A stretch of DNA of 64,000 nt from Sparassis latifolia. Taxonomy: Eukaryota; Basidiomycota; Agaricomycetes; Polyporales; Sparassidaceae. Below are positions 22,250-54,620 of the stretch, piece after piece. The notes under the pieces were generated by a model. It was not told the origin of the DNA. It did no database searches and was given only the letters and a program-made list of their open reading frames with translations. Position 1 is the first letter of the stretch. Each line of letters begins with the position of its first letter. Where the stretch lies: the NCBI GenBank assembly GCA_018466975.1, contig CM031561.1, positions 4,898,001-4,962,000 of the forward strand. Direction: 5' to 3'. The position numbers and the translations under genes are program-made.

Positions 22250-24290
22250 TGTGTCCGAACGTACGGCCAACTTATAGTGATGCATCGACGATGTTCATTA
22301 CACAGATCTCGAGAAGGGGTGGTGATGCTCACATGGTATTTCCTAGGCAGAATACCTGCGTCAATAAATCATGGACAGAGCCATGTTACTTACCTGCCTC
22401 AAAGCTCGGATCCACCACCATCACCGACCAGTCTTCGGGTGAGAAAGCTTGTAAGAATAGATCCTTCTTCTATTCACAATCTGAACACCAAATAATATTT
22501 CATGTGAAGATCGCAGACGCACGGTCCAACCCTCAGGGAAGAGCTCGCGCGGGAGGAATTCCATACAAGGCTTCTGAAACCCTGTCGCGAAAACGACCAC
22601 GTCGGCGGGAAACTAAAGAAGTCCTCAGTAGTTCGCTCACATTACGGCGCGAGTTTAGATCAGATACACACCTCTCTCTGCTCTCGGAATACTTCAGAAT
22701 CATCCTGCTTCACATTCACCTTCACGCCATCTGCCGAGAAGCGATTTACGTGCCCATGGATATACCGCCATTTCTTCGCCCAAAACTCCTGAATGAGGAG
22801 ATCATTCCAGACCTGTTCATGTACACATTAGTGAGAATGTTCCGTCCAAGCTTGGAACACATGAATATACAATTTTGCTTTCAAAGATTCCCAGATTATG
22901 TGGAACCAGTCCTTCCACACCCTGGTAGGCATAATTTACCAAAAAGTGCGTAAACCTCTTCTCCCAGATGTGCCTAGTAACAATGAGAATAAACTCGTGG
23001 AAGTCACACTGAACGGACCGACCGGAATGGCATGTACTTCCCAAGCCATATGAGACTATATAATATCATGCTCTGTGGCAGGATCCACTTGCGTAAGGTT
23101 CCTAAGGTCAGGACTAGTAAGACATGATAAGGGGAATCAACACACCTTATCTTCGCTGGCAATAACTACACACTGCTTTGCACCGCTTTCTATAGTAACT
23201 TCAACAGCATCTAGTGCACCATTTCCGATGACTACGACGTTCATGCCATCGACGCAATGAACCTCGTGCATTTCGGATGAATGGTACATAGCATTACGGA
23301 ACACATCCCCTGTTTGCCTGCTGGTGGTCGCATTGTCATCCCACGTAGCCTCGCCATTATGCGGAGTGCCCACAGCCATACCCTCGACTGCGATCATCTT
23401 TCGCTCGCCACATTTCCCTGTAGCGATGACAATGGCGTCGAAGATGTCCTCGTTAATCGTCTCGTCCTTGCTAGACGTCTCGTCCTTGCTAGCCGTCGCA
23501 TCCTTGCTAGTCGTCTCGTCCTGGTTAACCGTTGCGTCCTCGCTAGTTGTCTCGTCCTTGCTAATCATCTCGAGCTTGATAGGCGCAAAAATGTCTTTTC
23601 GAACCCTATACCGCACTTTCCACTGTGCATGACCCTCATGGCTGGAGGCTGTAGCTCGACAAATAGCGAGCACCTTGGAGCAGAGATGCATCCGTCGGCC
23701 AAGATCATACCTGAGAACTATGCGATGAATCTCTGCAAAAGTGAAGATATCGTATCATTATCCCGTATTTTAAATGGTGAGTGCAGCAGAGGGTATTACT
23801 TACCTGCTAAGATCTCATCCCGAAGTGGGAAGAAATGTCTCCATAAAACAGCAGGGTGGAAGCGATAGAACAATGAAGTGGATTGCAACCCGGCGCTGTC
23901 ATCACAGTGGTTCCAGATCCCACCTGTATAACTCGTGTGAGAATCGTCGAGGAACGATGGTGGGCGTAGTGCCACTCAACTCACCGTAGTCTCTCTCTTG
24001 GCCAAAAGTACGACTTCGAAGCCCTGGGCGAGCGCATGGGCCGCACATGCAATGCCGGTGGCTCCAGTGCCAATAATTGCAATACGGCCTGGTTGTCGTG
24101 AACTTGATACACGCTGGAGAGCACGTCAGACTAACGCTAAAAATTGAGAAATTTACAAGGGGTAATGCAACAATGGAGCACACTTCGCAGAATACGGAAA
24201 TGGGACCCTTACCCTCACGAACAACCAGAAAATAAATGCTTGGACCAACAAATAGGCGAAATTCAAAAGAGAGGAGTCATGCTGAAAACA
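22250..24290 (-). pseudogene. Flavin-containing monooxygenase-like, copy 1
   Basis: Minus strand: an N-terminal hydrophobic exon (NFAYLLVQAFIFWLFVR), an intron, then GRIAIIGTGATGIACAAHAL, the FAD-binding GxGxxG motif. It continues SLFYRFHPAVLWRHFFPLRD, EIHRIVLRYDLGRRMHLCSK, an acidic repeat tract (see 23459-23584), DIFDAIVIATGKCGERKM, and VVVIGNGALDAVEVTIESGA (a second dinucleotide-type motif). Then come SGRRGLRTFW, FPADVVVFATGF (the FATGF motif of FMO-like enzymes) and DLFLQAFSPEDWSVMV. Premature stops: TAA at 22936-22938 (after RTFW) and another near 22850. The intact frame is inferred from the paralogue at 36.5/54 kb. Such enzymes oxygenate N- or S-containing or other small substrates using NADPH and FAD; the substrate here is unknown. 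Confidence 0.8.
23459..23584 (-). repeat. 18-base tandem repeat coding an acidic hexapeptide
   Basis: About seven units of 18 bases (plus strand consensus GTCTCGTCCTTGCTAGTC) keep the frame and encode variants of SKDETT/SKDATA/NQDETT. The paralogue at 37.35 kb has a single unit (KDETTNED) at the same place, so the array expanded after duplication. Confidence 0.85.
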
Positions 24291-36484: not shown

Positions 36485-37757
36485 CATGATTGAAGTAAGT
36501 ATGTTGAAGTCTGCTATCCCTTACGTATACGTACTGTTCAGTATTCTACATTCTACGCCACAGCTATGATGCTAATGCAGTTTTCAGCGTGTTCTTGTTT
36601 TGAATTGGATCTACTTGTTGCTTCAGGCACTTATTACTCGGTTGTTTGTGAGGGTAAGTGTCCCCTTTCCGTATTCTGTGAAGCGTGCCCCATTGTTACA
36701 TTACCCCTCGAATTGGTTTCTCAAATTTTACTGCTAGTCTGACATGTTCTCCAGTGTGCATCAAGTTCACGACAACCAGGCCGTATTGCGATTATTGGCA
36801 CTGGAGCCACTGGCGTTGCATGTGCAGCCCATGCGCTCTCCCAGGGCTTCGAAGTCGTACTTTTTGGCCAAGAGGAAGATTACGGTGAGTTGAGTGGTCC
36901 GATGGCGGCCACCATCATTCCTCGATGATCAAACCTATTCTCACACGAGTTTACGTAGGTGGAATCTGGAGCCATTCTAACAGCAGCACACGGTTGCGAT
37001 CCACTTTATTGTTCTATCGCTTCCACCCTACTGTTTTATGGAGACATTTCTTCCCACTGCGGGATGAGATCTTAGAGGGTAAATAATGTTCTCTGCTGCA
37101 ATTGTCATTTAATATATGTGCTAATGATCTCTTCACTCTGCAGAGATTCATCGCCTAGTGGACAAGTACGATCTTGACAGTCATATGCATCTTTGCTGCA
37201 AGGTGCTTGATATTCAACAAGCCACAGCTGAAGAGGTCTTAACCTATGCGGAGATTCAAGGCAAGAAAGCCCTTCCCTTCTACGGGAGCCCTGCGCAGTG
37301 GATAGTGCGATACCATATCGGAGGAGGCATCGAGAATGCGCCTATCAAGGATGAGACGACTAACGAGGATATCTTTGATGCTGTTGTCGTCGCTGTAGGG
37401 AAGTGTGGCCGGCCAAAGGTGATCATGATGAAGGGTATGCCCACGTCCACACGCCATACAGGTGAAGGTGCATGTGAACGCGATACGGCCACCAGCAGGC
37501 AAATCGGGAATGTCTTCAGTGGTGCTGTGTACCATTCTTCCGAAACAGGTGATGATCTCATCTTCGCTGGCAGGCGCGTCGTGATCCTCGGGGACGATGC
37601 GCCTAGTTTTGATGCAGTTGACCTTGGTCGTGCACGAAAGTGTGTTGTTATTGCCAATGACGATAAAGTGTGTTAACGCCTGTTATGTGTCACTATTACT
37701 GACCCTATGAATCCTGTTTAAGTGGATTCTGCCATACAATATGCTATTATATAGCCT
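36485..37757 (+). pseudogene. Flavin-containing monooxygenase-like, copy 2, 5' half
   Basis: The short first exon ATGATTGAA (36485) splices to RVLVLNWIYLLLQALITRLF, a membrane-anchor-like helix. After the next intron comes GRIAIIGTGATGVACAAHAL (FAD GxGxxG), then LRSTLLFYRFHPTVLWRHFF, VDKYDLDSHMHLCCKVLDIQ, NEDIFDAVVVAVGKCGRP, and RRVVILGDDAPSFDAVDLG where copy 1 has an IGNGALDAVEV Rossmann turn, so its glycines are partly lost. The last recognisable residues are IANDDKVC near 37676, followed by an intron and the beginning of the next exon (GTGGATTCTGCC), which is broken at 37757-37764 by the KDZ element. The 3' half resumes at 54001 on the same strand. Confidence 0.85.
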
Positions 37758-37764
37758 CATATCG
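37758..37764. other. Putative target-site duplication, left
   Basis: CATATCG here is repeated at 54001-54007 on the far side of the 16.2 kb element. The unbroken FMO copy 1 (minus strand near 23.05 kb) reads CTCATATGGCTTGGG at this point. With one mismatch the match extends to 8 bases (TCATATCG/GCATATCG). Confidence 0.7.
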
Positions 37765-38520
37765 GAGCCCATTCAGCCAATATATACCTAAACTTCCATA
37801 TAACCGAGGTGGAACATTTTGTGTAAATTTCCATAAAACCGAGTGTTGGCCAAGAATATAATATAGGATGGAGATATAGGGTTGGCCAAGACAATTAGGC
37901 TATATAGGCTGAGTCGCATATTTGGGAGTTAGCCAAGGGAGGTGCAATTTGAAGTCTATATAGGTTGTCGGGCATTTTGGGGTCAGCCGCCATGTCTCTA
38001 TATATATTATAGCTGAAATTGTGCCATTGGCCAAGAGTCATAAAATTCCAATCCTATATAGAGTTTGCAGACAGTTGGGCTTGGCCAAGTGGACCTATAT
38101 AGAATCTTTGTGTAAATGGTCCACTTGGCCAAGGCACATGAAATTTTGATTTTATATAGCATCTCCTGAAATTTGGCCATGGCCAAGGGTACCCTATATA
38201 GATTTTGTGGAAATAATGCCTGCGGCCAAGGGTCGAGAAATTTGCATTCTATATAGGATTGTCTGAAATTTGGCCTCGGCTAAAAAGGTCCTATATAGTT
38301 CCTTGTGGAAATGGTGGCCTTGGCCGAGTGTCCTGGAATTTCTGTTCTATATAAGGTCTGCTGAACTTTGGCATTGGCCAAGGATGCCCTATATAGTGTT
38401 TGTGAAAATGGTGGCCTCGGCCGATGATCTAGAAATTTTCATTCTATAGAGAGTTTTCCACACTCTGGCCATGGCCGTATAACTTTCTACACAAATGGTG
38501 CTCCAGGCTAAGGCATCCAA
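37763..38520. repeat. KDZ left terminal inverted repeat with subterminal array
   Basis: Inside the first 150 bases a repeating pattern begins: CTATATAG words alternate with (T)TGGCC(A/T)(A/T)GG and GGAAAT(A/G)(A/G)TG words. In the clear part (about 38.18-38.40 kb) spacing alternates near 42 and 57 bases, which gives a degenerate unit of roughly 100 bases. Such arrays are typical transposase-binding regions. This function is inferred. Confidence 0.8.
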
Positions 38521-38644
38521 ACTTAAAGGTCTTGCTGACACCATGCTTCTTTAAGGTCCCAGAGGATACACTCGTCCAAATCTACATAGCCAGTCACACA
38601 CATTTATTGGCTAATTTTGCATATCTACCTTTGCAACTCGCAGA

Positions 38645-41600
38645 CTACCTGACAATCATTTGACCATTGAATGCCTGCTGTGATTGAAGTGCAAAGTCCT
38701 TCCACATTGCACCTTGCTTTGCTGCTTAGGATGCATGACCACGTAAACCTGCATTCACTGCCTCCATCTCCCTGGTCTGCCACTCATGCTGCTTGCGTTC
38801 AAACCACAGGACAGTCCATAACATCTCATGTCGCACCTTCGGTACCTCCTCCTTGTACCTTGTGTATTGTGCCTTTGCTCTCAGCCAGTTAACTCGATCA
38901 ACTGACATGGTGATTACCATCTGTGAATAAGTTTGACCAGGCATAAACACATAGTCACTCACCCTCCTTCATGGCATTTCAACCAACGTCTTCCGTATTA
39001 TTATCCACACTTTCCCCCCGTGTATTTCGAGCATTCTCACCTCCAAGTTTCCAAAACCACGCCAATCTATCATTCCTCTGCCCAACTCGATTCTCCTCCA
39101 CAATGTCTCCAGGCATCTTCGTGTCTTCCTTTTGAATGTCAAGATATCGTGTCAACAACTGTTCACTTGCTCCTAAACAGATCAGGGCTTTCCTAGCATG
39201 CTTGTATCGTCTAATGATTTTGCGCTCTTGCTGACCAATCTTCCTGAGCTCAGCTGCATTTCGGGTTTTGTGCCATTGAGACTTATTGTGCCTGAATTTG
39301 GTCCAGAAAAGCAAAGACTTGTGACCTAACAAGAGTCGCAAGTCTTCAAGACAGTCATTGGCTTGGCCAACCCGTAGCTGTAACTCCTGCTGTGCAATGC
39401 TCTCCCATCCCACTGTCTTGCATTGCTCAATGCCAAGTGAGGAGGGAAGCAGGAGAGTGATGTTCTCTGGCAACACCTCCTCTTCAATATCTTGTGGGTC
39501 CTCCACATCCTCCATGGTCCAACCCTCTTCATCTGCCACCTCATTAGAGGAGATTTCTAAGTGCTCAATGTCTTCATCATCTAATAGCGCCATTGCGCGA
39601 TTGTGAAATCCATCAATTCTTTTCTGCAGCAAATTTCGCTTCGTCTCCACCGAATTCTTGTTCGTGGTGGAGCTTCGCTTGGTGAGGTGTTTTGCCATTA
39701 CTTGTATGTCATCTCTGAAGCACAGACTGAGCAAAGAGACCAAAGTGAATGTCAACTGGCTCACTGTGTCTTTTCGATATTTATTCCAGTGCTCAACCAG
39801 GTTACTGTTTCACTTTCCAGGACTCTACCCTCCTCATTGGGTGACTGTCTTTCTTCTGTCGTGAGCAGAAGGTGAATATCACCCATGGATGGAGCTATGG
39901 CTCAGTTTGCTCAATCAGATGAAATCTGGCTTGGAGAATGCACATACCCTTCTCCAAGTTGACATTGTATATGTTCAACTTATCACCACGCTCTCGCATA
40001 GCCACGGTCTCCTGCTCAGTCCACACTTTGATATCGTCCTCGGTCATCGTGGTTGAGAGATCAACAAACTCTTGCTCCATTTCAGATTCACCTTTGACAG
40101 CCTTGGAATACTTGGTTCGGAGCATGTTCACTGAAGTACTGTTAACCCTCATCAGCGCAACAGCAAAAGAACAGTGCCCACCAATGCCCAGCAGCTTCAT
40201 CCAGTTTCAGTCTCGAAAATGATCATCCAGAACCTCTCATCGGTGTGCCTTGGTCATTGCACGTGTTGAAGGACCTGTGCCATTCATTTTGGACCACAGC
40301 ATCTCCACAACCTCACCCTCAATCTCACCCATGTCTTTTCTGAAGTTTAAGGAGAACTTGGCAAAACACTCTGCAATGTGGGCCCCAAGGTGGAACTTCC
40401 CCACATAGGCAATGATCTTTATCTTGTCTGCAACCTTCAGATATTTGCTATCCGCAACGCGCTCCAGAAAGTGAATTCACCACTGACATGCGACATCGTA
40501 GCACACATCCATGAACTGGAGCCCTTCAGTGTTATATAGAAGGGCCTGGCAGATGGAGTAGTCTATGTTCATCTGTCTGACAGTCATGCAGAGATGGAAT
40601 GTTTGGCAAAGGAGATGTGATCAGTTGGAATACGCTTACCTCTCTCCTTTTTGGAAGTCAACCACTGAATGGGGTATGACACACCCATGGTGAGCACAGA
40701 CACATGCTCCAACACCTGTGGCCTCCAGATTATGGCGATTAGCATTGGCCTGATTCACAGCACGGTGATTTGCACATCTAGATTTCTGCAGATATCTCCC
40801 AGAGCTCAATTTCAGTTCCAACTCATCTTATTGCATGCACCTCAATAGTTTCTTTACTGCACTTCAAATGATCTTGATACTCCACATCATCAACCATGAA
40901 TCCTTGACCATTAGTCAGAGGCACATCATTCTCAGGCTGACGCATCTTCATATGCTCCAAGGTGAAGTTTCCATCTGCCACTATTATGTGACAATACACA
41001 CCACTTTATCTTGAATTTCAGTCAGAGCTCTAAAATCATTTATTATCACACTCACATTTCAGGATCTTCTTGCCAATTCTCAGGTAAATTGAGACATGGT
41101 TGGGGGCAAGCCGGACAAAAATAAGCCAACTCCCTACGACCTGGGCTCTTAAGAAGGTCATGGCCAAAGCCAAACCATTTCCGAACTGCAATATCTCGCC
41201 ACTGGCAGGAAACCCTCATGAGTTCCCTATAACGGTCCTAAAACAGGCAGATTACCTCCAAGAGACTTATCATATAACTAAGATTACTCACAGGAACAGT
41301 TTGGGGTGCAGCATTATTGGTTAACCGTCGCATCTTGGTGTAGAACCTGGATGCTGAGGTGTTGCAAACTATGGCATCAATACTAAAATATTTGAGGACA
41401 TCAAAGGTGAATGCTGTTCTGGGGCAAAGCTGACTGACAGGATAAAGGGCCATTCAAAGCATCTGAATGTGGCGAGGAGCTGCATCAGGACATATACACC
41501 ATTTTACCTTTTGCACATAGACTCCATTGCATGAAGCAATAATCACCTCTCCCTCCTGTCGATCATCTACAACATCTTCACCCAAAAAATGTACCTGGCC

Positions 41601-42314
41601 TTCATCTTCCAGCTGCAGCCCGAGATCTCCCCCAAGATTAATGACATCCTCCCATCCATCTTGAACACCAAATCCACATGGACATACATTTCTGCCATGC
41701 CCCAGGTGAAGGACGAACCCCATTAAAGCCAGAGAGATTTTGACAAACCGATTCTGAACCCAGCGTTCGAGACGATGAAATGGTTGTCAGCGATGTGAAT
41801 CAAGGCAGCATCGGAGACATTCAAAATGATCCCCCCAGCAGTCTCGACAACGAAACTGGCCATCAGGTGCATTGCAATTAGTGCATCCACGATCCTCTGG
41901 AGGTGTCTCCATGCCCAATATCTCCGACAGATACTCAGCCTGATAGGGAAGCCATGAACGCATCAGGTCCTGTTGTGACTACAATGTGGAAAAAGTGAGC
42001 AAACATCATCTCCATCATTCTTCACTCACCTTGCCACTACGTGTCCTAGTTGACAGCAGTTCCAGAGCAAACGGATCCAGGCCATCATCACCAATAATGT
42101 GATTTCCAGAGGGTGCAGCTAAAGTCTGGCTTGGTCCTTCTACAGCTGTACCCTTCCTCCTTCCTGTCCGAGGACTCGACTTTGGTGTACCTTGCACAGC
42201 TCGCATCACCCACTTTCTGCCCCGGCGTGCCCGGACCTCTACAAGGTCAACATCCTCAATTGAACTGCGATGGCGCTTCAATTTCCTGAACTGCTTTTGA
42301 CTTCTTGGAGACAT
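38645..42314 (-). pseudogene. KDZ transposase with CxC2 cysteine cluster
   Basis: Start 42314 (MSPRSQKQFRKLKRHRSS). After an intron comes a CxC2-like cluster: CTNCNAPDGQFRCRDCWGDH, FECLRCCLDSHR, then RLERWVQNRF and GFVLHLGHG. Then CPDAAPRHIQML, CPRTAFTFDVLKYF, HHGCVIPHSVVDFQKGER, MNIDYSICQALLY, KIIAYVGKFHLGAHIAECFA, FSLNFRKDMGEIEGEVVEML, ELQLRVGQANDCLEDLRLLL, GHKSLLFWTKFRHNKSQWHK, ICLGASEQLLTRYLDIQKED and RHEMLWTVLWFERKQHEW, ending at 38645. These are the conserved blocks of KDZ transposases. In-frame stops: 41787-41789, 40477-40479, 40237-40239, 40207-40209, 38726-38728; most are CGA to TGA or TGG to TGA changes. Otherwise the gene is complete. Confidence 0.9.
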
Positions 42315-42550
42315 TGTGACGCCGGTGAAAGTGGTGGGGATAAAGCAAGGGAGAAGAAAGTGGCGGGCAATCTCTTTATCAACATGTGCAGGCCGCATGC
42401 TCCATGAAATACAAATTACGTGATGAATGAGTAATCATTTTGCTGGCTGCCTGGTGTTGGTCATATGATTTTCTACCTCGTGCAAATCATAAAAAATGTG
42501 ATTCTCATATTGCATAACATGACAAGGTTATAACAATGCGCAAATTATAT

Positions 42551-45500
42551 CTACTTCCGAGATCCCTTCTTTTTCCGTGCAGGAGCCTTGGCCTTTGCCG
42601 CCTGAGCAGGTGTCGCCTCTGTCACTGCTGTCACCCCAGCTGCAGCTGCTTGAGCCTTCCTTGTTGCTCACTCGGCCAGTGCGATGTGGAACGACAGTAC
42701 TGGAGGTACTGGGAGCAGTGCCTCCATCTTTGGCCTGTGCCTGAGTTCTCTTCTTTCCAGCAGATCTATTGTGATTAAAAAATGAACATGATTAGCAAAT
42801 GTGAAGACGATAAAAAACCATGCCAACAAAACCTGGCAGGTTCCTCTTGCAATTGATCCTCCTCTGGAGGCTCTCCAGCCGCAACAGGAGGAGCCTGCTG
42901 ACGATGTTGTTGCTGGTGGGTTTTCGGACGTTCCTGAGGTGCCGGTTCATCATCACTATTAGCTAAAAACTCTACCAGTGGAGGAGTGGGCTGGGCTCGG
43001 CGATGTTGCAGCTGAGACGAGGCCTGTTTAACTTCAGCACTATGATCAAGGAGATGGATGGATGTCCTCACCTGTGGCTGCACAGCAGTGCTATCAGCCG
43101 TGGCTGCTTGAGAATCGGCAGGTGCTGATGTAGTCTTGATCAACTGTTGGGAGATCAGCCATGCAGCTTCTGCTGTTCACACAGGACCCGACTCTACCTT
43201 TTCCTGATAGTGTCGCATGTAGTCATCAGTCACATATTCATTAACATCGTTAAGAGTTGCATCAGCGGAGAGCATGACCACGACATCCCTCACAGAACGT
43301 CGGATCCTTTTGCACCTATGAGGTTGGCCTTGCCCAATCCACCTACTGGCCTTATCCATTTGCTTTCGCAGCATACACACCATCTGATGCTCTACGATCA
43401 CTGGCTCCTCCACAAGGCCTGTCATGGCTGAGTATGCTGAGAATTCATCTGCTGTCAGGCTGCCCTCTGCATATGCGGTCTTCGTATATGCATAAATCTG
43501 CCGTGCAAAGAGCCAACATAGTCGACGAAGCTGCAACACGAGAGTGTCATCAAGGCCAAGTGCAACTGTCTGTGGATCATTATGCTCAGCGATGAATCGC
43601 AGTACCAAGCCAATTGCCAATGTCATGAGTGAGAGCTTCAAAGCTGAGGTCAGCATCTCAAATCTCTGATACGGTCGTGCCTCAATATAAGCACAGAAGG
43701 TCTCAATTCCCTTCGGCGTGCAGAAGTCGGGAGGAAGTTCATGGTGTGTGAGTTCCCATGATGCCCATGCTGGGCGAGGATATTCTTTGAGCATCAGTGT
43801 GACACACTACATCTCTGATCAGATGAATAATCTATCGGAAAGCAAATTGACTTACGGGAGTGAGTCAGCAGACTTTGACAAGAAGCCTGTACTCCTTAAA
43901 GGTAGACAGAGATAAAAGAAATTCAGATCGCTGAGTTGCCGAAGCAGGCGATCCATCTTCTGGATTATTGCTAATAACAAGCATGAGACCTGATCAGTTG
44001 GACCAAAACAGTAACCGCTCACATCAGAGGGGAATTCCATTGCAGAAAGACTTTATAGGATGGCACAATGCGTGGAAGACCACCAACCCAATTGCCTGCA
44101 AGCGTCCATTGCTCTCGAAGAGGATGCTCAATAGCTTGCCATACTCCAGGCTCATATTTCCACACCTTTACATATTCTTCAGAAATAGCAGCGGTGTCGT
44201 CAGCCAGCAACTGCGGAGCGAAACATCCCAGATTATCCAACCATGCCATTGATGGTCGCTGAATGATATGTTTGAGGTCAAGTATCCTGAAGCCTTGGAA
44301 TCGGGCAGACGTTGTCAGTAAAATCGCCTTCTGGCAGTCAACCCACTCTAGCTCTGCTGCATTATTTTCAGTGGAATCCGGAAGTGAAAATGCTGGCGGA
44401 GGGATCACAATTCTGCTAACATCGTGCTTATACCAGTCGGCATCAACTATCATTGACCTGGGCCACAGAATAATATCTTCCGGGTGATTGGCGATCCTCG
44501 GATAGAGTTTTCTTGCATGTGCAATTGCTGCCAGAGCACCAGCAACTCCAGATAAACTCGCTTCTCCCGTCCGAGGAACATCGACAAGATCCTGTGCAGA
44601 AAATGGCTGCCATCCCTCCTCATCATAGGCAGTATTGGCGGTGTGCATCGACTTGGCCTTGTTCATCGCAGCCTTCGTCTTTACCCCCACTGAGTCATCC
44701 TCGCCGCTGGAAACATTATCCAAGTTGAACTCCTCCTCAGAATGTGGGGGAACATGCTTCTTCCTCATGGCAGGCTGCTTGCCTTTGCCCTTCGTGTGAC
44801 GATTGACTCCGACCTCCACCTCATTATTGTTGTCATCCTGGTCCCCTTCATCTGCCGAATCACCAACATTCATATCAGTGACATCTTTCTGCTTTTTTCC
44901 CCTGGGCTTCATGGCATCACCTCCACCAGCTGCTACCAGAAATTGGAAAGCAACTGAGCCAATAGCCTGTCGATTCACCCAGTGCTTGAGGAGCAAATCG
45001 ATGTTGTCAACACCGATGTTCCAAGGTTCGGCAAAGACCACGCTGTCCGGCCAACATGCCTCATCAATGTACTTGCAGACATCTTCACTGATCTTCTTCC
45101 AAGGGCACTTTGCGTGCTTGGAATCAACAATCTTTCCTGCATGTATATCATCAGCATGGATACAGATTCACTTTTGAGAATGAAGCTTACGATGCTGGTG
45201 AGTCACAATGGCCCGGACCAAATGACGCTTTTGAGTCAGCTTCCACGTCTCCTCAAATGCAGGAACAATGGCATTGCCATCATCATCGATCTCGTGCTGC
45301 ACATCGGTGAGTGCAATTTCATGCTCTTCTTTGGCATCATTATCCTTAAGCTCATTGGGAACTAGTCATTGATTAGTGCATGTTGCTTCATATTCCATGG
45401 GTATGACTTACTCATAACATTCATTGCCCACATCCCCCACTTCTTCCACAAATCTTTCTGCCAGTCATCGACAGAGTCAGTGAACTTCAGAAAGCCACCA

Positions 45501-46388
45501 GTATCAGGTGACTGAAGCCTAGGATGGCGGTGAATAAAATAATGCAAATAATGATGGCCAAGACTTACTTGGTGCACCGAATCTGCGTGGGCTTCTCTGT
45601 CAGCAAGGCCAGGAGGATGAGAACCTTTCCTCCCATCTTTGTCTCCACAGTCTGGATGAAGTCTTCACCCATCCTGCCAAGATGCTTTTGAGCATAGGCA
45701 ATTTGCCCAGCTCTATCCATCTGCGACTCCTCCGTCTTCTTCGCAGCAAGCACTTTCAGTTCATCTCGCTCCTCGTCAGTCAGGTCATGCCATTTATCTA
45801 CAAATGCCTTGGTATACCAGACCAATTTCTCAACTTGATCCTTCACATCAGGATGCTCCTGGCCAACCCTTTCCAACAGCTCCTCTCGCCATGCCCAGTG
45901 CGCAGTCTTTCGCAAAGACCACTTCTGCCCCATCATCTTCTTTCGCACATCAGCTGCATCTTCCTCCACCGAGAATGGCTCTACGTCATCGTCGTCCACA
46001 GTGGCGGGATCAGCCCCACCTTCACCTTCAGTCGGATTGGGATAATTGTCATCCTTGGCCATGCGTTCAGCATCTGCGAGAGAGAACTTGCGATCTGTCG
46101 TGCCGGGAATGATTCCGAGATCCAATGCAGCCTTATTATTTGTGAACCAGTTGCCGATTTGCTATGCAGGAAGTGAGAAGATGTAGACTGAAAAAATTTA
46201 CCATGTCGACGTACTTGAGTGTTGACCTTGGGCCTGTCCCATCCCTTTGCATTCGCCCTTGCTGTAATCGCCTCTGAGACCTTTGTCACAACAGCTGCAC
46301 GTGCACCACACTTGCTGTCTCTCCACTTAAGGTAGTACAACACCATCATGGAGCCATAGGGCTTCGACCAACGAGCTTTGCCAGCCAT
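42551..46388 (-). CDS. Large hypothetical KDZ cargo protein
   Basis: Start 46388 gives MAGKARWSKPYGSMMVLYYL. Next exons: QIGNWFTNNKAALDLG, then RKMMGQKW-type charged helices (WAWREELLERVGQEHPDVKD), LVWYTKAFVDKWHDLTDEER, GGFLKFTDSVDDWQKDLW, ALTDVQHEIDDDGNAIVPAF, a long Lys/Asp-rich linker, WQPFSAQDLVDVPRTGEA, IANHPEDIILWPRSMIVDAD, ARFQGFRILDLKHIIQRPS, REQWTLAGNWVGGLPRIVPS, EVLTSALKL-type helices near 43.6 kb and a Ser/Pro/Gln-rich tail. The frame closes at 42551 (ARKKKGSRK-stop), with an apparent one-base shift near 42.67 kb. QIGNWFTNNK resembles a homeodomain recognition helix, but I cannot see the rest of that fold with confidence. Function unknown. Confidence 0.6.
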
Positions 46389-48047
46389 GGTTGATAGTAG
46401 GGCTTTTGAAAGGATAAAAGTACTGGAATTGCTGTTGTAGCAGATGGTGGGAAGAGGCAAGATGGAAATTTGGGCAGGGCCAAGGGTTCAAAAAGTGCAC
46501 ACAGTGGCGCGTGATGTGATCACGTGACTTAAGCGCCCGTGCATCGTCCGGCATACTGGCATGGCTTCGCCTTATTCATGCTTCATGGATACAAACTCAA
46601 GTATTACAATTTTTTCTAACTACAAAGATGGAAAACAAAAGGTGACTTGTGATGACTGAGGGCGGGCCCTCCCTCATTCGCCACAAGCACCAGGAAGAAG
46701 GGAAAAATGAAAGAAAATAAACTACAAGGAAAGTACAAATACAATCTGCAAAACACCAAAAGGAAGTCAGAAAACAGTCGGAAAACGTTAGAAAATGCTC
46801 ACCTTGCGCGCTGCATTGCTCATGCTGCAGTGACCGTCATCAATTTTCAGTACATGTGTAAGAGGCTGTGGAAACATCAAGAGGTCAGTATTCTTCAAAA
46901 TGCAAGGAAAAAAACTCACCGGTTCTTTCAATCCACTATAGGATTTGGCCTGGTCTTCACCACTGTCATAAAACCCACCATATGCTGAAGAACCCTTGTC
47001 AGTATCTGTATGATGTGCTGTGGAGTACTTACCACATTTTCCTTACACTTCCTGTACTCGCACCATACCATGCAAAAAGAAACAAACAAGTAAAAAAGAC
47101 TGACCTTGTGGAGCAGGCCAATGGCGACTCCACGCACGACTCGCACAGCACAAGGCTGATGGCCGGCGACAATGTAATGTGCAGAGCACATATGCGCCTA
47201 GATGCAAGTACGCCGAAGCGCATTGGCACCGAAGTGCAAAAGCCCCCAATTCCCATATACACTGGGTGAGAGGTGCGAGTGGGTTGCCCCCACAACGCGG
47301 AGCCCTCTGCAGCTCGCCGCCGCATGCCCAGTGATCCCCCAAATCTCAAGTACCAGGTGAGGGACGCGAGTGGGTCGCCCCCACAATGCGGAGCCCTCTG
47401 CAGCTCGCCGCCGCATGCCCAGTGATCCCCCAAAACTCACATGTACCCCATGACTGGCCAAAGACCAGCCATGGGATGATGTCAGTAAAGTGCATATTAC
47501 ATAATACTATCTACAGGAAAAGAAACAGTCACCTTACAAAGGCATGCACAAATAACTGAGCTTTGACACTGCATGCCCATGGCAACATGCAGCAACAAAG
47601 CTCAGCCACTTGTGGCCAGCTTGCTGAAAGGGGATGGTGGTGGTAGAGAAGGAAGAGAGAGAGGAAGTTGCGCCAGCTCATAAAACCAACTATTTGGCCA
47701 TGTTTGTTCGGTCATGTGCCCCAGACACCAGACGCATCAAGCACCTTCCATATGCAGAAGGTGTACACTGGTGGCTGAAATATTGCTATATTTGGATGAT
47801 TTTCGGACTCCGATCAAATTTCAGCCACTGTCCACTAGATTTCAGGAAGTCCGGCCCTCCAAGCAGATCACGTGATCTCCATGGGCTCGCGCACACAAGT
47901 CCTTTTGATTGCAATCACTGTAATCTGATCTATCTCTCTCTCTCTCTCTTGCTCTATCCTTGCTGTCTGATCTCTGCTATATTTCAGTTGCTGAGCCTCT
48001 CCTGCTTATTCTCAGACATCTATTTCACTGCTTTTGTATATTCTACC
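46389..48047. other. Divergent upstream region inside the KDZ element
   Basis: About 1.66 kb between the minus-strand and plus-strand cargo genes, presumably holding promoters for both. A CACGTGA-containing stretch lies at 46.52 kb. A GC-rich tandem duplication is listed separately. Pyrimidine-rich CTCTCTCT at 47.93-47.95 kb precedes the PHD gene start. I see no gene. Confidence 0.45.
47266..47447. repeat. Two-copy GC-rich tandem repeat, period 91 bases
   Basis: Units start at 47266 and 47357 and share GCGAGTGGGT, GCCCCCACAA, GCGGAGCCCTCTGCAGCTCG and CCGCCGCATGCCCAGTGATC, differing at a few bases. It is much more GC-rich than its surroundings. Confidence 0.85.
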
Positions 48048-50905
48048 ATGCACAGCCAGTCTGGGAAGCGCGCACAGTCTGCTCAGCCTGCCCATCAGAC
48101 CTCTACCCCACAGTCTGGTGTCAGGCACTCTATCTCCAATCTGCACTCAATCCCGGAGAATCTTGCGACTGTGGGTACAAGCCAGGACCGGCATCAAGCT
48201 TTCAATCTCGATCCAGCCGATCAACCGATCGGGGGAGGCATCTCATACCGTAGATCTGCGCCACCAGCTTACTCCCCTGGCCGAACTTCGCAAAAGGACA
48301 GACCTGGTATGTTTCTATGTTTCTAATAGTAAAAACGTTTGTCAAGTAAGCAACATTTCATTTGATATGTTGATGACAGACTCTACCGTGCATTCGCCGA
48401 TGCCTCACATGACCCCTCAAGAAGATGCTATGTCGCAATCGACTCTGAGTATGGACGAGATGATGGATGTGGATGATTGGAAGCAGTTCCAGTCGAGGGG
48501 AAGTGGAGAGGATAGGGGGAGCCTTTCACATAGAGGTTCGTATGAAGATGCCGATGAAGCTGGTCAGTTGAAGGGGGAGATTCTGGATGACGACTCAGAC
48601 CGAGGTGACATGTTCGTAGTAAATCGCGATTGCACAGGAAGCCTGCCTCTGTCCAATGACGAGTCAGAGGAGACTGATGAATTGGATAATACCGATGAGG
48701 AATCGGAGGAGACAATCCACCAGCCGCGGAGCTATACACCTGTGTCAGATGTCGAGGAGGACATCGAGGAGGGCATCGAGAAGGTCATCGAGGAGGAGGG
48801 CAAGGAGGAGGACAAGAATGAGGATGAGGACAATGATGAGGATGAGGACGAGAACAATGACGAGGATGAGGACGATGACGAGGACGAGGACGATGATGAG
48901 AATGATGACGAGGATGAGGACGATGATGAGGACGAGGATGAACAAAGTGTTTCTGTCCAGCCCTCACCTGTCTTTCAGAGCCGCCCATCTCACGGAGTCA
49001 TACGCAGGCCGAAAGGACGTGCATCTGCTGCTAAAGTGGATGCCCCTCGACGCCGAAGCAGTCGACTCTTGGCTGGTCCTGTAGTGTCTACCGCTGCCGC
49101 TGTTAGTGAATGTGAGCGCAGCGCACTCACCCCCGATCTAACTACGCCTCCTCCTACTCACCCACTGAAGCGTCAACATCACAAGGTCTTTCAGACAGCA
49201 CAGAAGTCTGTGAGGTTGCCGACAGGTGAACGTGGCCCACTCGACAATGGTGCATTGTTCAATTTTCGGCAGTGCATCTTTATTCTTATGATATTAGCCT
49301 CTGGAATATTACAAGCCTCCGATGACCTGCATGTGGTCTCTCAGCTGCCAAGCCCAGTGTCAGTTGTTTCCAATGTCATCTCCAATTCTGACATGGTGTG
49401 TTTTCTCTCTTCAACATATGAGTCTTGCTGACTCAATGCACCTAGTATTGCTTTCTCTGCCAACAAGGTGGAGACTTAGTTGACTGTGACCGTTCTAACT
49501 GCGGCAGAGCTGTTTGCTTGCATTGCATTCCAGATCTCCAGCAGTGGAATATGACTGAGCAGATGCGGTTTGAATGTCCGGCCTGCGCTACAAAGCATGG
49601 CAGTGGTAGGTTATATGCATTCTTTACTCCCACAAAAGCTGATGTCTGAGGGTTATCAGGGCCTGTATAGTGTCCAATCTGCGGAAAAACCTTGGGTACC
49701 ATTGACGAAAGGTCTTCAGATTCTCGGCAAGCCTGAGATATCACAGACTGCAAGGTTGGATACCTCATCTTTGGTTTTGGTTCATCTGCGCCTGCGCTCG
49801 CTGCCTGAGTATGGTACCATCGCCAATCTTGTGGAGGAGTATCTTCGAGCCTATTACATTGACCGCAGAGAGTTCCTAAACCAGCTGGATGTCGTCTTTG
49901 ACTTGGAAGGCTCAGAGGCCACAGAAGGTCATCGTCTTCATATGCTCGACATAGTGTCGAAAATTCGATCGTATGTCATCTGCCTTTCACATTGACTCAG
50001 AGCTGATCCTGATCTTCTCCTATGTCACTAGCTACAAGCCTACCCGCATGCTAATTCTTATTTATACACACTCGCACGATGACACCGGTGACTTGTTTTA
50101 CAGCAGCCACTGGGTAGGCACAATTGATACTGTAAGTCTCTCATGACCGATGGGACCTTGCATTCACTGATTTGTCACAGTTCTTCAAATTTGTTGTCTG
50201 TGAAGACCTGATGGCACTCTCCCCAGAGGTGCCGACAACATTTGCGCTGCTGGCTTATGGTTCCGTGGTGTCAAAGGCAGCTCCTGGGGAAGACTTGGTC
50301 ACAGTTTGTACACGGTATGGTCTTCCCATTACCCTCCACTTGATATTAGCATTTTTACACATGCACGATTTAGCTACAAGCTCCCCCGGGTTTTGGCATT
50401 CACAGCACCGGCGCTGTCTTCTATCAGTGCGGCCCCCTTCTTTTTTGGATTCGTGCGCCGTGTGTTTATTGAAGGAGCCACTGTCGGTGACCTGCTGATG
50501 AGCAAACTTCTCGCCAGTTCAGGCCCATTGGGCAGGCACTCCAGGGTTATTCTCTTGGAAGGAACCACTCAGGATCGTGTCATCAGCCGTGATGATGCGA
50601 CGACTGGTGATTTGGATAAGGCCAGGTGTAAGTGAGCACGGGCAGAGTCCTACAAGCTGACCATCTCAGAGTACATCTGAGATCATCCCAGGATCAGCCC
50701 CTATGGCAATCGGGTTCCAATGCAGTGCAACACTTGTCTTCGCTTAGGCACTTTCGTCTTCTTCGATCGTAAGGGCACTTCTCCCCAGACTCATTGCTAT
50801 CGCTGCAAGCATTGTCATGCTGAGTGGAGCTTTGAGCCTCCGCAGGATGGCAGGCTTCTGAAGGAGTTCAACCAAGGCACCTGGGTGAAGGTTATTCAGC
50901 AGTAG
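48048..50905 (+). CDS. PHD/ADD-like zinc-finger protein, KDZ cargo
   Basis: Start 48048 gives MHSQSGKRAQSAQPAHQTST. A long acidic low-complexity region (48.59-48.95 kb) is followed by basic RRPKGRASAAKVDAPRRRSS. After introns, YCFLCQQGGDLVDCDRSNCG, RAVCLHC and FECPAC (49449-49600) form a C8 cluster: C-x2-C-x8-C-x4-C-x4-C-x2-C...C-x2-C. The fifth ligand is Cys where a classical PHD has His, as in ADD-type fingers that read histone H3 tails. The rest includes YGTIANLVEEYLRAYYIDRR, LILIYTHSHDDTGDLFYSSH, VLAFTAPALSSISAAPFFFG, FVRRVFIEGATVGDLL, and a C-terminal cluster MQCNTCLRLGTFVFF...CYRCKHCHAEW with C-x2-C pairs, ending WVKVIQQ-stop. Likely nuclear. No clear stop breaks the exons I could join. 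It lies upstream of the TET/JBP gene on the same strand. Confidence 0.7.
48760..48945 (+). repeat. GAGGATGAC-type coding microsatellite
   Basis: Repeats of GAGGATGAGGACGATGAC-like words encode a run of Asp/Glu/Asn in the PHD protein. Antisense frames look hydrophobic only because of this composition. Confidence 0.85.
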
Positions 50906-50946
50906 TTTAGGACATATCATACCGTGTCTTTGTTACCCACTCCTTT

Positions 50947-51170
50947 CCCTTTGTACGATATCAGTTGTTGTCATATGCTTTCGATTTCTTGCCCACCACT
51001 TGCCCTTTGTACGATATCAGTTGTTGTCATATGCTTTCTGTTTCTTGCCCATCGCTTACCCTTTGTACAATATGTGTGGTCATTGTATGCTTTCTTTTTC
51101 TCCCTAAATGTGTTGTCTTTGTACAGTATCAATTTTTGTGGTTTGCTTTTGATATGAATTTTGCGGTCTG
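50947..51170. repeat. Degenerate tandem repeat, period about 56 bases, four units
   Basis: Units begin near 50947, 51003, 51058 and 51116 and share CCCTTTGTACGATATCAGTT and GTCATATGCTTTC. It lies in the 3' region of the PHD gene; frames through it are not coding. The gap up to the TET/JBP gene (51171-51567) holds no other feature except an intron-like acceptor at its end. Confidence 0.75.
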
Positions 51171-51567
51171 CGTTCGATATGTCTGTAGTGATACAATATG
51201 AAAACTACACAGATGAGTTGGTCAATGTTTTCTCTCATTTTGGTGGAGAGACTCTGACATAAAGGAACCTTGGAGAATGCGCTGCAGTTATGAGGTCACA
51301 TGACTGTGGGAAACTCGTGATCATGTGACAACTTTGCATGATGTGCTGACACTGCACAATTTTTTATAATCCTATTTTCATTGTCTGATGACTTTTCAAG
51401 GCAGAAGATTTCGACATAGTCTTCCTCAATCACATAAATGTCGTTGGCATGCACAGGAGCATAGATTGTTGGATGAAAAAGGTCATAAAACAGCTGAGAT
51501 GATGAAGGGGTATTTTAGTCTGACAGGCTTACCTCCTTTTCTTTACTGACGTGAATTCTGTGTGCAG

Positions 51568-52921
51568 TGCACTGACACTTGATGAATTTCTGTGGAAGAG
51601 GTTATCGGAGTTGCTGAGGGAGGCTACTGGTTTTTATAATACTCATAGGCACACTGCTCCAGTCGCTGACATTGAACGCGAGAGAATAAGGTCTGTTTGA
51701 TTCCATGATCTACATTTGTGTTGCTTATGATCATGCAGAACACGCCTCCAGCAGCAGGCATTGAAGGAAAAATCCCTTATGGCTCAACATGTGAATTTCA
51801 CATCCGCACCCCATGCCGTGGAGCTGGACCATATTGTCACTGTTGTTGCCTGTGCGCTTCTGAATCCCAGTTTGTCATTTTTGCTTGTTTCAATCGGATG
51901 CATGTTGATTTGCCGTGTTACTAAGTTCATGTCGATTGTTATGTGACGGATAAGGGAGTGCTAAAGAAGAATGGCAAGCAGGACTGCCAAGGACCAATGC
52001 TAGTCATCTTAGAGCCTGCAGTTATTCTGGACACGAACAATAAGGTTCTTACATGGTATCTGCCAGGTATCTTGGGACAAGCACGTATAGTAAGTCTTCT
52101 CTCTAACTGCTGTCACTTGCTAATATAAGCCCTAGAATGACTACAACAATGCGACTTGTGGAATAAACCAGTTACTTCAGAGAACGGTTTCACAAGGTGG
52201 AAACTTTCGGACAGATGCAGATCTGTTCATTGCAGCCCCAGTGGACGGTTCAACCCAGACTCTCTGGACATCTCTGCTGGATGGTTTGCATGAGGACATA
52301 ATGTGAGTTTGGACATCAATGCCACATTTATATGATCTGAGAAGAGCATGCATGCTTCAGACAAATCTCGTTCCATCTGTCTCATTACGAAATGAACCAG
52401 TTGATAATTGGCTGGAGAGGACCTCATTTGTTGAGCAGTTGCTGAACACAACTTTATGCCTGATAAACTGGCCACTCTATTTTGCAGGCATCTCTAGCAA
52501 GTTAAAGATTCAGCATGAGAATGTTCTACAGCGGATGCATGAGAATGTTCAACGGTGGCCCTCAAATTTCACAGCAATGGGGATTATTGTGAATCGACGG
52601 ACAATTCCTCATCGGGATGGCAAAGCCTGGCATGCATGCCTTGATTTATTGGCCAGTGTGGGTACTCATAAATGGGCAGTGCTTTGATTGGATGATCTGC
52701 AAATGGAGCTGGGTTACTGCCCTGGAACATTGGTAGGAATCTGGGGAAGAGTTTTAGAACATAGCTGTGATGCATGGGAGGGAGGTGAGAGGATATGCAT
52801 AGCACACTATATGCGCTCGGCAGTATTTGAGGCGTTAAAAATCAACAAAACCTCATGGGTAGAATATGGGACATATCTCACACTGATGACTCTCCAGTAT
52901 GTAGTGCGTCAGGGGTTATAG
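51568..52921 (+). pseudogene. TET/JBP-type 2-oxoglutarate dioxygenase, KDZ cargo
   Basis: TET/JBP enzymes oxidise 5-methylcytosine or thymine in DNA using Fe(II) and 2-oxoglutarate. Exons: LDEFLWKRLSELLREATGFY, ERIR then TRLQQQALKEKSLMAQHVNF, GPMLVILEPAVILDTNNKVL and TWYLPGILGQARI. The catalytic domain is RWPSNFTAMGIIVNRRTIPH and HRDGKAWHACLDLLASVG (HxD iron ligands), then GYCPGTLVGIWGRVLEHS (distal His) and GGERICIAHYMRSAVFEAL (Arg for 2-oxoglutarate), ending QGL-stop at 52921. The pattern matches the fungal TET/JBP group. A TGA at 52685-52687 (AVL-stop-LDD) breaks the domain between HxD and the distal His, and the exon boundary near 52.30 kb is unclear. The start codon was not found; 51568 is an exon edge. 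Confidence 0.8.
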
Positions 52922-53189
52922 CAGATACTTCACAATTAGTTTACTCTTAAATTGAATTCAGTGGCACTGAATCATTTGATATGAAGGATATTGGTCTCAG
53001 AATGTGACAGCAAAGGACTGCCCAACTCCTACACAAACCCTGAAGGTGGTCTGACCTGGCTCATTACAGCTGATGGCATCACATGTGATGAAACCTGTAT
53101 ATATACACTGGGTGAAGGCCTCAGCTTTAAAACTCCTATGTGTGAAGGAAATTTTGCCCTTTCTGATTAAAACAAATAGAGGATGCTAC

Positions 53190-54000
53190 TCTGCTGAAGC
53201 CAAAGTGTGGAGAATCCTATATAGGATACAAATTTCAAGAGTCTCGGCCGAGACCATTATTTTCAATCACCCTATATAGGGCATCCTCAGCCAATGCCAT
53301 AGTTCAGAAGACCCTATATAGAATAAAAATTCGACTACCTTCGGCCAAGGCCAACATCTGTGCAAGAACTATATAGTGTATATTCAGCCAAGGCCAAAAT
53401 TCAGATATCTCTATATAGGTTGAAATTTGATGACTCTCGGCCGAGGCCACCATTTCCACAAGAACTATATAGGATATCTTCAGCTGAGGCCAAATTTCAG
53501 ACAATCCTATATAGAATGCAAATTTCTCGACCCCTGGCCGCAGGCACTATTTCCACCAAAAATCTATATAGGGTACTCTTGGCCATGGCCAAATTTCAGG
53601 AGATGCTATATAGGATCAAAATTTCATGTGCCTTGGCCAAGTGGACCATTTACACAAAGATTCTATATAGGTCCACTTGGCCAAGCCCAACTGTCTGCAA
53701 ACTCTATATAGGATTGGAATTTTATGACTCTTGGCCAATGGCACAATTTTAGCTACAATCTATATAGAGACATGGCGACCGACCCCAAAATGCCCGACAA
53801 CCTATATAGACTTCAAACCGCGCCTCCCTTGGCTAACTCCCAAATATGCGACTCAGCCTATATAGCCTATTCATCTTGGCCAACCCTATATCTCCATCCT
53901 ATATTATATTCTTGGCCAACACTCGGTTTTATGGAAATTTACACAAAATATTCCACCTCGGTTATATGGACATTTGGGTATATATTGGCTGATAGGTGTG
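53190..54000. repeat. KDZ right terminal inverted repeat with subterminal array
   Basis: Reverse complement of the left repeat, with the same CTATATAG and TTGGCC word pattern and closely matching outer parts (for example TATATTGGCTGAT, CTCGGTTTTATGGAAATTTA). The two arrays diverge gradually inwards. The left neighbouring stretch 52922-53189 holds nothing recognised. Confidence 0.85.
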
Positions 54001-54486
54001 CATATCGCTTGGGAAGTACATGCCATTCCGGTCAGTTCATACAGAGTGACTTCTAAAAGTTTGTACTCACTGTTTCCAGGTGCATCTGGGAGAAGAGGTT
54101 TACGCATGCCTTGGCGAATTATACCTACCAGGGTGTGGAAGAACTGGTTCCGCATAGTCTGGGAATCTTTGAAGGCAAAATTGTACATTCTTGTGTCCAA
54201 GGTTGTACGAAATATTATCGCTCACATACACGTGGAACAGGTCTGGAACGATTATCTCATCCAGCATATTCGGGCTGAGAGGTGTCAGTATATTCGGGGG
54301 AGTGCGAACTGCCTGTCAGCACGTAGCGTGCATGTGAATTTGAAGCAGGATGGCTCTCAAGTATTCCAAGGGGAGAAGGAGGTGTGCTTCCAATCTATAT
54401 TTATGCTGTAGTGTGAACAGACCACTGAGAACTTCTTTAGTTCCCGGCCGATGTGGTCGTTTTATGTACAGGATTTGAGGATCCAT
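54001..54486 (+). pseudogene. Flavin-containing monooxygenase-like, copy 2, 3' part
   Basis: It begins with CATATCG, the presumed target duplication, then resumes the FMO exon: AWEVHAIPVSSYRVTSKS in copy-1 register, SLYSLFPGASGRRGLRMPWR, NWFRIVWESLKAKLYILV, QVWNDYLIQHIRAERCQYIR and KQDGSQVFQGEKEV, an intron, then FPADVVVLCTGFEDP (FATGF-type motif). In contrast to copy 1, this segment has no premature stop. It is cut at 54486 by another transposon end, so the last part of the enzyme is missing. Confidence 0.8.
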
Positions 54487-54620
54487 CAGGAAAAAGCCCC
54501 AAGTGAGGTAGCTGCCGCCATGATTACGTAGACACGTGTAGGGCATGTAGCCGCGTGTCACTCAATGTACACCTCTGTAGGGCTGTGTAGCCACCACTCA
54601 CATTTCCATAGCACCATGGA
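54487..54620. mobile_element. Plavaka-like transposon end
   Basis: CAGGAAAAAGCCCCAAGTGA at 54487, followed by GGTAGC and repeated TGTAG(CC) words, closely matches the left end of the Plavaka element at 25278. It is preceded by AT, the same target dinucleotide. No matching right end or transposase was found downstream in the window. Confidence 0.7.

Follow-up and report, generated by a model that had tools for sequence, protein, structure and literature searches.

What is a gene for a TET/JBP oxygenase doing inside an interrupted flavin monooxygenase (FMO) gene of a mushroom, and did the mobile element around it have means of its own to counter silencing by the host? The locus lies in a 64,000-nucleotide stretch of the Sparassis latifolia genome (C10:4898001-4962000, hereafter the window), which we compared with the whole assembly of 41.4 Mb in 22 contigs. 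We hold with good confidence that this is a young copy of a Sparassis family of cut-and-paste KDZ transposons, that it has already been inactivated, and that the family had the history that we propose below. That the cargo of this family once had an anti-silencing role is plausible, just short of an even chance.

The element proper spans 37765-54000 (16,236 bp) and is bounded by a perfect 7-bp duplication, CATATCG. The two parts of the FMO gene lie on either side; the FMO-like family PF00743 reaches an E value of 0.0048 on one FMO exon, under the Pfam cut-off. An FMO paralogue elsewhere in the window provides a natural empty-site comparison within one assembly and one strain. Its exon KWILPQSMILYSLIWLGKYMPFRS is continuous across the insertion point, which falls between KWILPYNMLLYSLIS and LGKYMPFRS. 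Both halves align with the paralogue, and the insertion point lies within one of the paralogue's exons. We conclude that the FMO halves are one gene cut within an exon, and joining them restores that exon. In places the alignments with the paralogue contain in-frame stops; it may be a pseudogene or hold introns there. We also considered that the FMO halves had been joined by misassembly or by chance around unrelated repeats. The 7-bp duplication, the exon restored by joining and the paralogue crossing the site argue against this, as do the same ends at other genomic places, each with different 7-bp duplications. We therefore rejected a misassembly of the FMO locus, to which we give practically no credence.

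The inverted repeats start 8 nucleotides (nt) inside each element end, and the two terminal 8-nt tags differ. All 13 two-ended copies of the family carry one GAGCCCAT end, with a single base changed in one copy, and one CACACCTA end. We therefore take the duplications to mark the true ends, which lie 8 nt outside the inverted repeats, and the element has the termini GA..TG. The outer 434 nt of the inverted repeats are 96% complementary, and the repeats can be aligned across about 706 columns. Two palindromic octamers make up these repeats of about 700 bp: CTATATAG, whose spacing alternates between about 56 and 42 nt, and, in the gaps, TTGGCCAA-type sites. In the first 720 nt, GGCC was counted 16 times (1.3 expected from 2,000 mononucleotide shuffles) and CTATATAG 8 times (0.02 expected from the same number of shuffles). 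Arrays of this kind suit a putative protein that perhaps binds at many sites.

A genome search that used the outermost 446 nt on the left as query yielded at least 67 matches, the repeat counts being lower bounds. We read 14 paired copies and set aside single ends without a listed partner (on C10, C16, C7, C4, C6, C9 and C8). The 7-bp duplication is exact in 8 of the 14 paired copies and carries one mismatch in 5, and the remaining copy lacks an end; two of the exact cases (C10 near 2.82 Mb and C11 near 3.06 Mb) lie at one duplicated site. An 8-bp duplication, as expected of Zisupton and Dileera elements, was not found, the 8-bp flanks differing in the 14 pairs. This anatomy points to cut-and-paste transposition with a 7-bp stagger. 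In the four other long copies read, the set of four genes and its order match those of the window copy; they encode a KDZ transposase with a CxC2 cluster, an orphan protein, an acidic finger protein and a TET/JBP oxygenase. Four of the long copies are mutually 97.0-97.5% identical and the fifth is 94% identical. Large private insertions occur in the C11 copy (1,444 columns in the left inverted repeat and 1,159 in gene 2) and in the C9 copy (1,434 columns in the transposase). A preliminary description, made from the window alone, had proposed a complete KDZ transposon with exact ends, inserted into an FMO gene with CATATCG on both flanks and carrying its four genes as a unit. The recurring ends and 7-bp duplications of the 14 paired copies, the exact duplication with the spanning exon of the paralogue, and the recurrence of the four genes in the other long copies bear this out.

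Table. Coordinates of the transposon, its genes and the surrounding FMO sequences, counted from the first nucleotide of the window
Feature	Position	Strand	Remarks
FMO paralogue	22568-24089	-	covers both FMO halves; exon uninterrupted at the insertion site
FMO gene, 5' part	36779-37757	+	exons from the GxGxxG motif onward; exons 36779-37667 plus partial last exon from 37720
Target-site duplication CATATCG, left copy	37758-37764		
Left terminal 8-nt tag GAGCCCAT	37765-37772		outside the inverted repeat
Left terminal inverted repeat	37773-38475	+	array of CTATATAG and TTGGCCAA-type palindromes
Gene 1, KDZ transposase	38645-42314	-	with CxC2 cysteine cluster (Pfam)
Gene 2, orphan protein	42550-46388	-	model of about 1,000-1,126 aa; 3' limit approximate
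Gene 3	48048-50905	+	N-terminal part acidic; C8 PHD/ADD-like finger (about 49446-49600); middle unassigned; C-terminal CxxC zinc-ribbon-like end
Gene 4, TET/JBP oxygenase	51527-52950	+	HRD motif 52610; alignable exons 51779-52903, outer limits approximate
Right terminal inverted repeat	53290-53992	-	palindrome array extends inward to about 53190
Right terminal 8-nt tag	53993-54000		CACACCTA read inward, TAGGTGTG on the + strand
Target-site duplication CATATCG, right copy	54001-54007		
FMO gene, 3' part	54008-54500	+	three exon pieces tested; exons 54001-54500 with the duplication included

The Pfam family KDZ (PF18758) is recognised in the transposase fragment of the window (E = 9e-16, 58.7 bits, cut-off 26.6) and in the C11 copy (E = 1.6e-24, 87.2 bits), and CxC2 (PF18803) in the C11 copy (E = 3e-19, 69.6 bits, cut-off 27). 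The window transposase is interrupted by at least 7 in-frame stops (41789, 41456, 40479, 40239, 40209, 38981 and 38728), a count that leaves out stops common to the copies through intron read-through. Interrupted transposases were found in all five long copies read, and no long copy has all four frames open.

The TET/JBP gene of the window is broken as well: its frame changes near 52240, and position 52685 holds an in-frame stop. Tet_JBP (PF12851) matches the window fragment with an E value of 5e-4 and the C14 copy with 2.3e-7 (30.6 bits, cut-off 34.9), both below the Pfam cut-off. Compared with CcTET of Coprinopsis cinerea (PDB 7vpn, 7w5p and 8jkk), the TET protein of the C14 copy reaches an E value of 5e-19 over 196 residues. 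The catalytic residues are common to both proteins, with HxD, the distal His, the Arg and the Asp at Asp337 kept, whereas the Gly331 position is occupied by Ala in our family. According to the accessible part of a recent study, Asp337 of CcTET is required for activity on 5-methylcytosine (PMC12730594). The DNA-oxidising function predicted for the TET protein follows from this homology, and the catalytic alignment upholds the preliminary assignment of a TET/JBP gene.

Apart from one frame-change flag at the very C-terminus, a part of the model that is uncertain, gene 2 is open in the window copy. Selection inferred from this open frame was rejected (0 stops versus 2.3 expected, not significant). 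The gene has no Pfam match. Protein searches for relatives of genes 2 and 3, which need shared 5-residue words and in one case scored the top 7,994 candidates by shared words, gave matches solely in S. latifolia and S. crispa and none beyond Sparassis; remote relatives are possible. In the genome, the placeable matches of the two genes, which leave out a few on C7 and C4, fall in the family of the window, its derivatives or an older relative on C6. The spacer between genes 2 and 3 holds two 84-nt direct repeats (47265-47439, 93%), near which sister copies are longer by up to 275 columns.

Gene 3 is broken in the window by in-frame stops at 50633 and 50678 and a 20-bp deletion at 49604/49605. 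On its finger, the Pfam family PHD_NSD scores 13.7-18.9 bits in four proteins, versus a cut-off of 23.9. A profile of the finger resembled the PHD fingers of NSD3 (E = 0.006), NSD2 (0.055) and CHD4 (0.12) weakly, and the ADD domains of ATRX and the DNMT3 proteins at chance level (1.4-5.9, the last for DNMT3L). With the NSD3 PHD finger it has in common the C8 spacing and the pattern CFxC..GG(D/E)LVxCD. The pattern H...LLACGS prompted a search for a CHAT/caspase-like protease in the middle of the gene, a candidate that we rejected, the hhalign probability being 0.1 per cent against the genome's single CHAT domain. The same region gave no CHAT or Peptidase_C14 Pfam hit up to an E value of 5. When both families were searched for across the genome, CHAT turned up at a single locus elsewhere, and Peptidase_C14 had no match. 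The stretch encoding the acidic repeat (48753-48950) varies in length by 66-90 columns among the long copies, and directly downstream of the gene (50929-51152) lie four tandem 56-nt units, 66-88% identical to the first.

Nine of the 14 paired copies are short derivatives of 6.7-8.3 kb (on C8, C10, C11, C4, C14 and C5). As judged from BLAST pieces of at least 150 nt, gene 2 and TET are missing from them, and so is most of the transposase, of whose 3' end about 0.3 kb remains in eight of them and about 1.3 kb in C5_4286. Retained are the ends, the sequence preceding gene 3 and roughly two thirds of gene 3 from its start, interrupted by gaps but with the finger region included. A coding role of this gene-3 remnant was rejected, as there is no full gene and the matched stretches of nearly all short copies contain stops; frames of up to 117 aa occur in 4 of 8 aligned short copies and one of 224 aa in C5_4286. 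The preliminary description had named ends without the four genes as an observation that would speak against its unit. Taken literally, such ends exist in these nine paired copies, which look like internal-deletion derivatives and leave the four-gene unit itself unrefuted.

Eight short copies of one orientation are 95.7-99.6% identical. Their bodies, like that of the long C9 copy, are inverted relative to the terminal tags, with one tag of each kind in every two-ended copy, which suggests recombination between the inverted repeats. A stretch of about 470 nt, located from gap positions, is present in all nine short copies and absent from the long ones. In the one copy examined (L047) it resembles a small inverted-repeat element (GGCAGGGACA..TGTCCCTGCC). 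The regions C10 2.82-2.85 Mb and C11 3.03-3.06 Mb mirror each other, with the same insertion site, a short element 99.6% identical and matching TET and KDZ places; this is an inverted segmental duplication or an uncollapsed haplotype.

How the family came to be inactivated can be read from its substitutions. When singletons of four long copies were polarised with the fifth as outgroup, 426 of 521 were C-to-T changes. By site, they affected 183 of 714 CpG, 99 of 1,640 CpC, 117 of 2,573 CpA and 27 of 2,072 CpT positions in the four long copies. The observed/expected ratio of CpG is 0.51 in the window copy, 0.51-0.56 in the window copy and its three close relatives, 0.34 in the C9 copy and 0.21-0.32 in the nine short copies, compared with 0.83 in the remainder of the window. 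A C-to-T bias of the CpG type in some basidiomycete transposons has been linked to methylation and deamination (PMC4352252, accessible part), and the host genome contains DNA_methylase domains (5 hits at 4 places). The strong CpG footprint implies that these copies, at least, went without lasting protection, and it shows that in their case silencing won. In seven exons of gene 2 (2,880 nt, five copies), 188 private C-to-T changes created 18 stops versus 13.2 expected, and 54 were synonymous versus 63.9 expected; after insertion, the gene decays as if neutral.

The TET gene is not confined to this family. A genome search with TET returned 68 rows, 35 of them at 25-34% identity. Among these 35 rows, which represent a second and more compact group, 27 have no stop in the matched stretch. 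At least 31 lie near a KDZ match (within about 3.1 kb) by coordinate comparison, which covered part of the 164 KDZ matches. The window family and its C6 relative contribute 8 rows, which span the main TET exon largely or in part; 3 of them have no stop. At the compact locus L056, TET and transposase lie on the same strand, with no long inverted repeat within the 8 kb read, and the transposase is 52% identical to that of the window family over 172 aa and 28% over a further stretch. Normalised to A-to-G changes, C-to-T changes at CpG amount to 38.3 in the window family, 19.1 in the compact group and 20.8 in the short copies (four copies per group, singletons without outgroup). The compact group has therefore undergone CpG decay too, to a lesser degree than the long copies, and the gap between it and the window family is about two standard errors by hand estimate. 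We draw no conclusion about protection by TET from these ratios, since the short copies without TET equal the compact TET-bearing group.

Both the short derivatives and the compact group bear on the possibility that the cargo is neutral baggage, that is, captured host genes without benefit to the element. Nine derivatives of about 7 kb, two of which share one duplicated site, spread although gene 2 and TET were gone, the transposase was mostly lost and gene 3 was kept only in part. The neutral decay of gene 2 after insertion fits the same explanation. Against it, the TET of the family aligns with CcTET and keeps the catalytic residues, and the 27 compact-group rows free of stops, in a second KDZ group that also bears TET, suggest selection on active elements. 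Neutral baggage appears quite improbable to us.

We instead favour the following history for the family. An intact KDZ transposase would have cut at paired ends and reinserted the element with a 7-bp stagger. Each end, being a long array of two palindromic octamers, would have been fit for binding many protein molecules. Element DNA would have had its 5-methylcytosine oxidised by the TET/JBP enzyme. The finger protein, which may be a reader of the H3 tail, perhaps directed or licensed this oxidation or transposition itself. The host would then have methylated the copies, and deamination of methylated CpG would have broken their genes. The family would persist as defective copies and non-autonomous derivatives that once depended on a trans-acting transposase.

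Alternatively, the TET and finger genes may serve transposition itself, by marking the ends with oxidised cytosine or by recruitment to a chromatin state, and not the escape from silencing. Both genes stand alongside the transposase and gene 2 in each of the five long copies read, and, as the CpG decay shows, these copies were not kept free of silencing marks. Additionally, the accessible part of PMC12730594 notes reports of oxidised cytosine around Kyakuja and retrotransposons alike and speculates on a non-target-specific action. Set against this are the few CpG sites of the end arrays, 12 in the first 720 nt. We regard a role in transposition as possible, leaning to the doubtful side.

A stronger form of the history that we favour would make the family a self-contained anti-silencing machine, in which the finger reader and the TET oxygenase act via the palindrome arrays and, once these functions are lost, deamination of methylated CpG ruins the family. 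If this were true, TET-bearing elements in the mushroom would be the record of a lost fight with host methylation. We consider this form unlikely. Several observations weigh against the history that we favour. C-to-T changes at CpA and CpC exceed those at CpT, so that simple CpG methylation is not the whole story. The equal ratios of the short copies and the compact group do not fit a simple protection by TET in cis. The families zf-HC5HC2H and the RING-type zf-C3HC4_4 score near PHD_NSD on the finger, all of them sub-threshold, and the top PDB profile match of gene 3 is RSP9 (E = 8e-4), a chance-like match of the acidic stretch. AlphaFold models of genes 2 and 3 have a mean predicted local distance difference test score of 30.3 and 29.9, respectively, with no usable fold. 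The finger protein is possibly a reader, a function that rests on sub-threshold matches. The PHD/ADD-like C8 finger of the preliminary description stands as a likeness, and the term histone-tail reader is not supported as stated, given the sub-threshold matches and the closeness of RING-type families. Its claim that this copy carries its own epigenetic toolkit is likewise not supported as stated, as the transposase, the finger gene and TET are all interrupted in the window copy.

The locus lends itself to experiment. The exact ends, tags and arrays are a defined substrate for assays of binding by the transposase and the cargo proteins. Further, the presence of two TET-bearing groups in one strain makes the question of protection by TET testable by methylation mapping.

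Element-encoded factors that act on short element motifs and undo silencing are known, namely VANC of the Arabidopsis VANDAL elements and TnpA of En/Spm. We liken our family to them by function, and binding of its proteins to the arrays is putative. The anti-silencing activity of VANDAL elements is also cited in the accessible part of PMC12730594.

KDZ1-KDZ3 of Cryptococcus neoformans share with our family a KDZ transposase with a CxC zinc cluster and true terminal inverted repeats (TIRs). These elements are about 9-11 kb long, with TIRs of 139-241 bp, and their insertion into a reporter gene has been observed. They differ in having CxC1 instead of CxC2 and target-site duplications of 8 bp (KDZ1) or 4-8 bp, and no TET or finger gene is mentioned in the accessible part of that source (PMC12810828 throughout).

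An association of TET genes with transposons was reportedly described earlier by Iyer et al. (2014), whom Kojima cites. TET-bearing Kyakuja DNA transposons of Agaricomycetes, including Polyporales, have already been published (Kojima 2025, PMC12730594, here and below as far as the accessible text goes). They resemble our element in the KDZ transposase, the AG-type TET/JBP gene, the 7-bp duplications and the Agaricomycete host. Two Kyakuja families of Laccaria bicolor have CA..TG termini and no TIRs, whereas the element described here has GA..TG termini, palindrome-array repeats of about 700 bp and two further genes (PMC12730594). We file it in KDZ and call it Kyakuja-like because of its 7-bp duplication, which falls short of proving it a Kyakuja. 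The word "phd" occurs 0 times in the accessible text of PMC12730594, and in the open-access literature, with subscription papers outside our scope, we found no paper on this family or on a PHD-like gene in a TET-bearing KDZ element. Judged by its sequence, what looks new relative to the known TET-bearing KDZ elements is the long palindrome-array ends and the two extra genes. Kojima infers that transposon TET protects elements and reports an earlier study without hypermutation among Agaricomycotina (PMC12730594); the family in S. latifolia is a TET-bearing KDZ family of an Agaricomycete with a clear CpG-biased C-to-T footprint.

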